From Pelagibacterium sediminicola (lineage in GTDB: Bacteria > Pseudomonadota > Alphaproteobacteria > Rhizobiales > Devosiaceae), in the NCBI RefSeq assembly GCF_003390885.1, contig NZ_QMEL01000009.1:1-64000 (forward strand): a stretch of DNA of 64,000 nt, given 5' to 3'. Every line of letters starts with the position of its first letter. Within the stretch, counting starts at the first letter, position 1. Both the position numbers and the translations under genes were made by a program. Below the pieces are notes generated by a model. It worked only from the letters and a program-made list of their open reading frames with translations. It made no database searches and was not told the origin of the DNA. Positions 29,398 through 35,561 of this stretch are shown one piece after another.

Positions 29398-29400
29398 AAC

Positions 29401-29558
29401 AGTGCTGCCCGGTGCGTGTAGGATACTGCATCCCCGGGGCCTTATCGATCCTAAAGGGAGCTGTCCCTGGCCGGACCCGTGGGTTCGGACACACGGCGCC
29501 CACCTACATGTGTAGGTTCCCGGGATCGACACATCCCACGGCCAGGGCGGCACCGATT
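29401..29558 (+). ncRNA. ssrS: 6S RNA
   Basis: A ~155-base non-coding stretch whose ends pair (GTGCTGCCC at 29402 with GGGCGGCAC at 29545). Further inward pairing (CTGGCC at 29468 with GGCCAG at 29540, and CCTACA/TGTAGG) leaves a large central bubble, the 6S shape that mimics an open promoter and binds sigma-70 RNA polymerase. It lies immediately before 5-formyl-THF cyclo-ligase, the standard 6S-ygfA linkage in proteobacteria. Ends are estimated from pairing. Confidence 0.88.
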
Positions 29559-32874: not shown

Positions 32875-33378
32875 ATGGTGGAAAGCGTGCGAATCATCGG
32901 CATCGACCCAGGGTTGCGGCGGACGGGCTGGGGGATCATCGAAAGCGAGGGCAACCGGCTGCGGTTCATCGCCTGCGGGGTGCTGACGCCGCAGGTCGAT
33001 CAGGCGCTGGCGCTGCGGCTCGTTCATCTCCACGAGGGGCTGATGCGGCTGATCGCCGAACACCATCCGCACGAGGCGGCGGTGGAGGAGACCTTCGTCA
33101 ACGCCGGGGCGCGCTCGACGCTGCTGCTCGGGCAGGCGCGCGGCATCGCGGTGATGACGCCCGCTTCGATGGGCCTGCCGGTGGGCGAATATTCGGCCAA
33201 CCTCGTCAAAAAATCCGTGGTGGGTACGGGGCACGCGGAAAAGGCACAGATCGAATTGATGGTCAGGACATTGATGCCGGCGGCCAATTTCAAATCCTCC
33301 GACGCGGCGGATGCGCTGGCCATCGCCGTCTGCCATGCCCATCACCGGCAGCACAGAAAGCTGGCGAAAAGCGCATGA
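32875..33378 (+). CDS. ruvC: Holliday junction resolvase RuvC
   Basis: 167 residues. [17 protein letters not shown] carries the first catalytic Asp and AAVEETFVN the catalytic Glu; the C-terminal [15 protein letters not shown] supplies the last acidic residues. It resolves four-way junctions with RuvAB. The ATG at 32875 lacks a clear ribosome binding site; a GTG at 32887 is an alternative. Overlaps ruvA by four bases. Confidence 0.93.
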
Positions 33379-33992
33379 TCGGGAAGCTCAAGGGAGTGGT
33401 GGAGACCATCGGGGACGATCTCGCCCTGATCGATGTCAACGGGGTCTGCTATGAGGCGTATTGCTCGGGCCGGACCTTGCAGGCGCTGCCGCGCGTCGGG
33501 GAAGCCGCCATTGTCTTTATCGAGATGATCGTGCGCGAGGACATGATCCGGCTTTACGGCTTTGCGAGCGAGGCGGAAAAAAGCTGGTTCAGGCTGCTGA
33601 TGACCGTGCAGGGGGTGGGGGCAAAGGTGGCGCTGGGCATATTGTCGACGCTCTCGCCATCCGAACTCTCCTCAGCGATCGCCTTGCAGGACAAGGCCAT
33701 GGTCGGGCGCGCGCCGGGGGTGGGCCCCAAACTCGCCCAGCGGCTCGTTTCCGAACTCAAGGGCAAGGTGCCTGCGCTGGGCGCGGTGGATGCCGGGGTT
33801 CTTGGGCTACAGACGGCCTTGGGGGAAGGCGTTGCCGGAAGCAACGCTTCCGATGCGGTTTCAGCGCTGGTCAATCTGGGTTACGGGCAGGCGCAAGCAT
33901 CAGGCGCGGTGGCGCGGGTGATCGCCAGGGAAGGCGAGGACACGGCGACGGAAAAGCTGATCCGGCTGGGATTGCGGGAGCTTTCAACATGA
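33375..33992 (+). CDS. ruvA: Holliday junction DNA helicase subunit RuvA
   Basis: 205 residues: OB-fold ([20 protein letters not shown]), tandem helix-hairpin-helix ([16 protein letters not shown] and [16 protein letters not shown]) and the C-terminal RuvB-contacting domain ([18 protein letters not shown]). It binds the junction as a tetramer and recruits RuvB. Coupled at both ends by ATGA overlaps, to ruvC and to the 36-codon ORF. Confidence 0.95.
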
Positions 33993-34095
33993 TCGATAAG
34001 CCTCGGGCCGGCATGGCGTGCACCCTTGGGCTGGTCGCCGTCATATTGGGCGGGCTTGCAATATCAGCGGTATCCGCCTTTGGCGAGAAAGCGAT

Positions 34096-34099
<4 letters not shown>
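33989..34099 (+). CDS. 36-residue single-helix membrane peptide between ruvA and ruvB
   Basis: The ORF starts at an ATG that overlaps the ruvA stop by four bases (ATGA) and stops at a TGA that overlaps the ruvB start by four bases (ATGA). It therefore fills the whole ruvA-ruvB gap and is translationally coupled on both sides. The peptide begins MIDKPRAGM and then holds one hydrophobic helix of about 21 residues ([20 protein letters not shown]), ending FGEKAI, so it is a predicted single-pass membrane protein with basic N-terminus. I recognise no family. The reading frame could be chance, but the double overlap is hard to explain otherwise. Confidence 0.65.
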
Positions 34100-35135
<1,036 letters not shown>

Positions 35136-35139
<4 letters not shown>

Positions 35140-35561
35140 GCGTGTTCGGTGGAGAGATCGGCAAGGACGGCGAGCACCGGTTCCCGGTGCGGGTCTATTT
35201 CGAGGACACGGATTTTTCGGGCAATGTCTATCATGCGGCGTATTTGAAATTCTTCGAGCGGGCGCGGACGGAATATCTGCGGGCGCACGGTATCCACCAT
35301 GCGGAAATGGCGAAGGCCGGGCTGGCGTTCGCGGTGCGCGAGATGACGATTTCCTACGACAAGGCGGCTCATATCGACGATCTGCTCGAGGTCGGGACGC
35401 GGATGGCGGAGGCAACGGCTGCGCGGTTCATCCTCGAGCAGACGATACGGCGCGGCAACGAGATCGTGACCCATGCACGGGTCGTGGCGGTGCTGATGAA
35501 CGACAAGGGCCGCCCGGTGCGATTGCCCCAAGAGCTTCGCGCGCTGTTGAGCGGTTCTTAA
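35136..35561 (+). CDS. ybgC: Tol-Pal-associated acyl-CoA thioesterase
   Basis: 141 residues, hotdog fold. The catalytic segment [19 protein letters not shown] and the downstream [10 protein letters not shown] are characteristic of YbgC. It hydrolyses acyl-CoA and is regularly the first gene of the tol-pal locus, possibly linking phospholipid metabolism to envelope division. Start is TTG 35136 overlapping the ruvB stop, with GAGGATGAG upstream; GTG 35142 is an alternative. Confidence 0.9.

Follow-up and report, generated by a model that had tools for sequence, protein, structure and literature searches.

A 36-codon open reading frame at the ruvA–ruvB junction of Pelagibacterium sediminicola as a probable gene remnant in a variable operon slot

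Described systems and the layout of the junction

Termination–reinitiation has been described for gene pairs that overlap by −4 nt, and in the available text of the two reports these pairs resemble the locus studied here in their ATGA overlaps, in joining co-directed genes of one complex and in needing only a short upstream stretch (PMC6728339, PMC10666635). They differ from it in that the partners couple themselves, whereas here a short extra open reading frame (ORF) would carry the coupling across a 103-nt insert. In the accessible part of Huber et al. 2023, a stop–start range of −8 to +10 nt is used for termination–reinitiation, gaps of about 20–38 nt nearly abolish reinitiation in the tested pairs, and 15 nt of the upstream gene suffice for coupling (PMC10666635). 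A second described system is that of Rhizobium leguminosarum, where, as far as the available text of the report goes, vapB, vapC, ruvA and ruvB carry consecutive locus tags (RL3987–RL3990) and the last three are assigned to one class of genes required for root attachment (PMC11406972). As with many of the junctions described below, an AbrB-type antitoxin and a PIN toxin adjoin ruvAB in that species, but the pair stands beside ruvA and not between ruvA and ruvB (PMC11406972), and the window has no such pair. A literature search, mostly confined to papers outside subscription, returned no title or abstract opening on a ruvA–ruvB slot.

The window, by which we mean the whole stretch of 64,000 nt that was analysed, comes from a 3.24 Mb genome and carries the operon on its plus strand. 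ORF calls place a 167-aa gene at 32875..33378, which we take from established knowledge of RuvC to be ruvC, and this gene overlaps by 4 nt the 205-aa ruvA at 33375..33992. The 347-aa ruvB (34096..35139, +) has its ATG inside an ATGA and a weak Shine–Dalgarno of its own; next in the operon comes a presumably ybgC-like thioesterase gene (35136..35561, +), whose junction served as a control, followed by what look by eye like tol genes. The gap between ruvA and ruvB is filled exactly by a 36-codon ORF, hereafter ORF36 (33989..34099, +), which shares 4 nt with the end of ruvA and 4 nt with the beginning of ruvB, with ATGA at both joints; the coordinates and the translation were rechecked and agree with the preliminary description of this DNA. 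A GGGAG Shine–Dalgarno (33976..33980, +) lies within the last ruvA codons and precedes ORF36, and in species without an insert the same place in the ruvA tail precedes ruvB. The peptide would form one hydrophobic helix at about residues 10–31 (34016..34081, +). Elsewhere in the window, a 6S RNA (Rfam RF00013, 81 bits; 29399–29557, +) stands directly before a gene that we take to be 5-formyltetrahydrofolate cyclo-ligase-like, the usual neighbour of 6S RNA.

Contents of the ruvA–ruvB slot in the family and the order

We compared the junction across 136 genomes of the family, which we take to be the Devosiaceae (order Hyphomicrobiales) from the species names of records with identical junctions. 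Nine of the genomes gave no ruvB match at the threshold, leaving 127; a partial match (G128) and the second copy in G097 were left aside, giving 126 stretches. Without one stretch that was cut short (L089) and one that held no ruvB match (L148), 124 junctions were readable. In 38 of them ruvA and ruvB are in direct contact (<12 nt), 18 have 12–149 nt between them, and 68 have 150 nt or more. The large gaps are occupied mainly by PIN/AbrB (VapBC-like) genes and by four-helix proteins. When slot ORFs were clustered by phmmer at E < 1e-4, with one PIN/AbrB pair checked in Pfam, PIN-like ORFs were found in 41 of the 124 junctions, AbrB-like ORFs in 36, and both in 35; besides the four-helix proteins, the remaining residents belong to a secreted family or to families that Pfam does not match. 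The PIN genes at the junction (L008, L009 and L018 among the 41) mostly have an AbrB-like partner, and by eye the pair is of at least two sequence types; where a PIN (VapC-like) gene is last in the slot it ends 4 nt inside ruvB in 37 of 46 cases, named records included.

When the named records are pooled with the family, 79 junctions contain a slot ORF of 60 aa or more, and in 47 of them the last slot ORF ends exactly 4 nt into ruvB. The 4-nt overlap, double or single, is thus the ordinary seating of genes in this slot. On a RuvA tree of 122 rows, from which two rows with short RuvA were left out and which is weakly resolved and includes very long branches (e.g. L052), the six slot states require at least 45 changes, where the minimum would be 5 and shuffling gives a mean of 67, and the well-supported branches alone force 3–9 changes per state.

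Other joints of the operon were followed in 50 named records; among the 80 named records as a whole, one (L194) lacks ruvB. At the ruvC–ruvA control joint, none of 50 records has a gap above 150 nt; 48 lie within −30 to 12 nt and the other two at −55 and 13. Gaps above 150 nt are found in 30 of 49 records at the ruvA–ruvB joint and in 21 of 33 at the ruvB–ybgC joint. The slot is therefore special when set against ruvC–ruvA, but since the ruvB–ybgC joint varies too, it is not unique in the operon. In those 21 of 33 records the ruvB–ybgC joint holds other genes, and in the nine inspected (L151, L155, L158, L160, L166, L167, L169, L170, L171) we take these by eye to be NUDIX-like or metallophosphoesterase-like.

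The order was sampled by 60 hand-picked stretches, one or a few per family code, from listed places among 228 genomes. Fifteen had no ruvA in reach; in the other 45, ruvA stands directly before the ruvB match in 16, at 60–300 nt in 8 and at 300 nt or more in 21. A four-helix family with GPLxG and AYxxGxxPAxxTG motifs recurs in the slot across the order, and seven of its ten aligned members start 4 nt before the ruvA end; among slot ORFs with at least three predicted helices, 25 of 39 do so. Four-helix slot proteins of about 140–190 aa were seen in several families of the order (L258, L266, L285, L291, L259, L264 and others), many of them with these two motifs and several with a start 4 nt ahead of the ruvA end, and neither Pfam (12 proteins) nor NCBIfam (3 proteins) has a model that reaches its cut-off on them.

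A first-round profile built from four members found seven more at E below 0.001, with the best reversed decoy at 0.006. Iteration absorbed 21 members of the slot membrane proteins, but reverse decoys then scored as well, and for that reason only the first round was used. The family profile matched 14 of 149 order genomes, 10 of them outside the alignment; of the six matched genomes with a listed ruvB place, the match adjoins ruvB in three (G273, G177, G181) and does not in three (G205, G232, G064). A structure model of an order-wide family member reached a mean pLDDT of 74.1, and its search against the PDB, the only model so searched, gave a best E of 1.3.

A further slot protein of about 111–133 aa (one called longer) carries the motif EQYxI...YPDAGGEE...GFGGFTDHER (L047, L051, L059, L066, L075, L139, L042). 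The one of these seven tested (L066) had no match in Pfam, NCBIfam or PADLOC, and the protein sometimes follows an all-helical-looking one (L051, L139). The ruvA–ruvB junction is, in sum, a hypervariable slot, and more interesting than the ORF36 peptide.

Relation of ORF36 to the four-helix genes of the genus

Within Pelagibacterium, a genus that includes P. limicola and P. xiamenense, 13 genomes were compared, the window's included. The preliminary description had held that close relatives lacking the frame would count against a functional peptide, and this is what the comparison returned: the 36-codon form was found in none of the 12 other genomes, its best match elsewhere had an E of 0.19, and it is so far a single sequence. 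At the junction, seven of these congeners have spacers of 41–46 nt (41 nt in five), three have AbrB–PIN pairs, one of which was checked in Pfam (MazE_antitoxin, E 4e-11; PIN, E 1e-11), and two have four-helix genes of 143–145 aa. The 143-aa ORF of P. limicola (G006) has the same −4/+4 overlaps as ORF36, and the 145-aa ORF of a second congener (G003) likewise overlaps ruvA and ruvB by 4 nt. The two proteins are 30% identical; four helices are predicted for both, and the 145-aa protein was also structure-modelled (mean pLDDT 64.7). Of the 136 genomes of the family, only those two were matched strongly by a profile of the two long genes; 12 others gave matches elsewhere at E 0.004–0.1. No full-length copy was found elsewhere in the window's genome at E ≤ 0.1. 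In genome G009 (L015) ruvA has only 61% ungapped DNA identity to that of the window, against 76% for its sister G010, perhaps through a frameshift or an assembly error.

When aligned in register from the start codon, ORF36 and the 145-aa protein of G003 share 9 of 30 residues, with a BLOSUM score of 22, and the hydrophobic helix of ORF36 falls on helix 1 of the longer protein. For comparison, an in-register score of 18 is obtained between the two long genes, and no other register of the G003 protein scores above 9 against ORF36. The G003 gene was the best of 25 slot N-termini tested, with a shuffle P of 0.0036, or about 0.09 when corrected for the 25 comparisons; the match also comes first when 113 slot ORFs are ranked, and of 771 membrane-like segments taken, with overlaps, from window genes, 0.65% score as high. 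At the DNA level, identities over the first 31 codons are 16, 17 and 7 by codon position, which reads as the pattern of diverged coding homologues, and total identity without the start codon is 38/90 (shuffle P 0.008). The corresponding counts between the two long genes are 14, 15 and 8 (P 0.058). Codon adaptation and GC3 of ORF36 (0.543/0.657) lie beside those of the two long genes (0.562/0.683 and 0.576/0.653), while codon adaptation is 0.681 for ruvA and 0.756 for ruvB.

Other comparisons did not recover this relationship. Against the P. limicola gene, ORF36 matches at 1 of 30 residues in register (P 0.70; DNA P 0.84), and the best register is shifted by 2 with a score of 10. Gapped blastn and phmmer searches of the gap against slot sequences gave no significant match to either long gene, so the case for homology rests on the in-register comparison. 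The order-wide four-helix profile scores the ORF36 peptide at E 0.027, not clearly separated from the peptide's own reverse at 0.14, with the best reverse decoy at 0.0007. ORF36 is thus probably homologous to helix 1 of the G003 gene, and the homology is probable rather than proven because ORF36 is unlike P. limicola's own N-terminus. A VapBC origin was also considered and rejected: with 129 slot ORFs as tblastn queries, the best match in the gap had an E of 0.007 and lay on the other strand, the best match on the strand of ORF36 was to a membrane protein at E 0.012, and Pfam gave none. Phage and defence origins were likewise set aside: neither the two long Pelagibacterium genes nor the ORF36 peptide matched PHROGs at E ≤ 0.1, and PADLOC gave nothing at the same threshold for the five proteins tested, which were the ORF36 peptide, one long gene and three further slot proteins.

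The four-helix slot proteins resemble ORF36 in two respects: their genes start on the ruvA stop, as seen in both Pelagibacterium genes and in seven of the ten aligned members, and helix 1 follows a short N-terminus. They differ from it in that ORF36 has one helix in 36 codons and is unmatched by the order-wide profile; with four helices and about 140 aa on the other side, ORF36 would be a remnant and not a member of that family. We consider it probable, if well short of certain, that ORF36 is the residue of a gene for a four-helix membrane protein in this variable slot, and that it may now bridge translation from ruvA to ruvB. Such a gene would once have occupied the slot, and an in-frame internal deletion of about 107–109 codons would have spared the start on the ruvA stop, helix 1 and a few final codons that overlap ruvB; the gaps of the two long-gene junctions differ from that of the window by 321 and 327 nt. 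In favour of this reading, a tree of ruvA and ruvB DNA groups P. limicola, which carries the 143-aa gene, with the window (support 98/97). Against it, a RuvA-only protein tree does not join the two as a clade, and the nearest relatives of G003 carry 41-nt spacers, so that a four-helix gene in the common ancestor is unsupported.

Translation across the junction and competing readings

The Shine–Dalgarno of ORF36 is good, at −6.6 kcal/mol, and that of the window's ruvB weak, at −3.5 kcal/mol, energies computed here against the anti-Shine–Dalgarno sequence. In direct junctions the ruvA-tail Shine–Dalgarno has a median of −6.9 kcal/mol over 36 cases, and behind inserts of 150 nt or more that of ruvB has a median of −4.1 kcal/mol over 60. 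When an insert begins on the ruvA stop, it would thereby take over the ruvA-tail Shine–Dalgarno and leave ruvB a weaker one. Stop–start distances are −4 on both sides of ORF36, inside the −8 to +10 nt coupling range, and the overlaps and the Shine–Dalgarno together support a fit to coupled translation. Given the effect of gaps in the available part of Huber et al. (PMC10666635), a short ORF overlapping both neighbours would be expected to restore a coupling broken by the 103-nt gap. With a Shine–Dalgarno in the ruvA tail, ORF36 probably continues to be translated. If it still serves any purpose, this would most likely lie in the act of translation and not in the peptide: ribosomes ending ruvA would restart on ORF36, end at the ruvB ATGA and restart on ruvB, a passage that an untranslated gap of 103 nt would prevent.

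The overlaps by themselves carry less weight than was first supposed. With NTGA fixed at both ends, the gap frame is open in 0.345 of 5000 dinucleotide shuffles and in 0.450 of 5000 sequences generated by a Markov model trained on the window, and the double-overlap geometry alone is expected in about 1 in 7–9 such gaps, the 1-in-3 frame condition included. Of the 124 family junctions, 119 have an in-frame NTGA start for ruvB no more than 12 nt from the aligned start, and in 110 it coincides with the aligned start, so that a fitting frame ends on the ruvB overlap by default. The preliminary description took the double overlap as a strong sign of real coupled translation; the fit to coupling stands, and as evidence the geometry is weak. 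The hydrophobicity is another matter. The 19-residue Kyte–Doolittle mean of ORF36 is 2.32, a value equalled by none of the open-frame shuffled or Markov sequences, which bears out the single hydrophobic helix described earlier. The helix is not a chance product, and the stretch either derives from coding sequence or has been selected.

A functional membrane microprotein of one helix, produced together with RuvB and either linking Holliday-junction processing to the membrane or acting on the membrane after DNA damage, is unlikely in our view, though it is the alternative that survives best. In its favour are a hydrophobicity far beyond shuffles, the good Shine–Dalgarno with an ATG and the double overlap, and the recurrence of proteins with at least three helices in the slot across the order, 25 of 39 of which start 4 nt before the ruvA end. 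Against it, the peptide is absent from the 12 other genomes of the genus, its codon usage is in the lowest 8% of window gene segments, and searches with it gave nothing in Pfam at E ≤ 1, nothing in PADLOC or PHROGs at E ≤ 0.1, and in NCBIfam a single match, to a pheromone family, at 14.8 of the 35 bits required and far below cut-off. Small hydrophobic SOS peptides such as TisB share with ORF36 their size, the single hydrophobic helix and a DNA-repair context. The alphaproteobacterial LexA-type box has the motif GTTC-N7-GTTC, and the window has none near ruvC, hence no sign of SOS control. ORF36 is most likely not a conserved partner of ruvB, and the earlier suggestion of a coupled membrane link or regulator of RuvAB is left without support.

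It is distinctly unlikely that ORF36 is a remnant with no present role, either as a peptide or as a bridge. That ruvB persists behind short junctions without an ORF, such as the 41-nt spacers of the five congeners and remnants of 62 and 72 nt in the family, speaks for this reading; an excess of short double-overlap ORFs speaks against it and for a bridge. An exact double-overlap open ORF is present in 7 of 30 ruvA–ruvB junctions of 12–260 nt, where 2.46 were expected (P = 0.005), a modest excess among junctions that are not all independent. Congeners account for two of the seven, with 16 and 17 codons. Since the seven peptides differ in sequence and the window's is the only hydrophobic one, selection for an open frame is favoured over selection for a peptide, with the same caution about independence. 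In favour of the main reading of ORF36 as a remnant, decay of other slot genes was also seen: in Devosia crocina (L113, identical to L160) the junction measures 103 nt and contains a 36-codon −4/+4 ORF that matches the C-termini of PIN toxins (best E 2e-6), a 72-nt junction (L119) matches PIN tails at E 1e-8, and L105/L106 and L122 are weaker cases.

More doubtful again is a wider reading in which the slot is an exchange site throughout the Hyphomicrobiales, filled with toxin–antitoxin pairs and fast-evolving four-helix proteins that are fitted by start–stop overlaps, the membrane proteins being true partners or effectors of RuvAB (for example in a membrane response to stalled recombination) and ORF36 a working one-helix minimal form. 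A chance open frame in an intergenic spacer is highly improbable: such a frame is open in 35–45% of random gaps and, with ruvB nearly always starting NTGA, one frame in three ends on the overlap, but no shuffle gave the hydrophobic core, and the in-register match to a congener's gene shows codon-position bias.

With ORF36 read as a probable remnant, it warns that a double start–stop overlap is not proof of a functional microprotein. Within one family, the two genes of one machine are joined by a 4-nt overlap in some species and separated by whole toxin–antitoxin or membrane genes in others. The slot thus offers many natural pairs with and without an insert, in which one may ask how a coupled operon tolerates cargo and whether remnant ORFs stay open for coupling.
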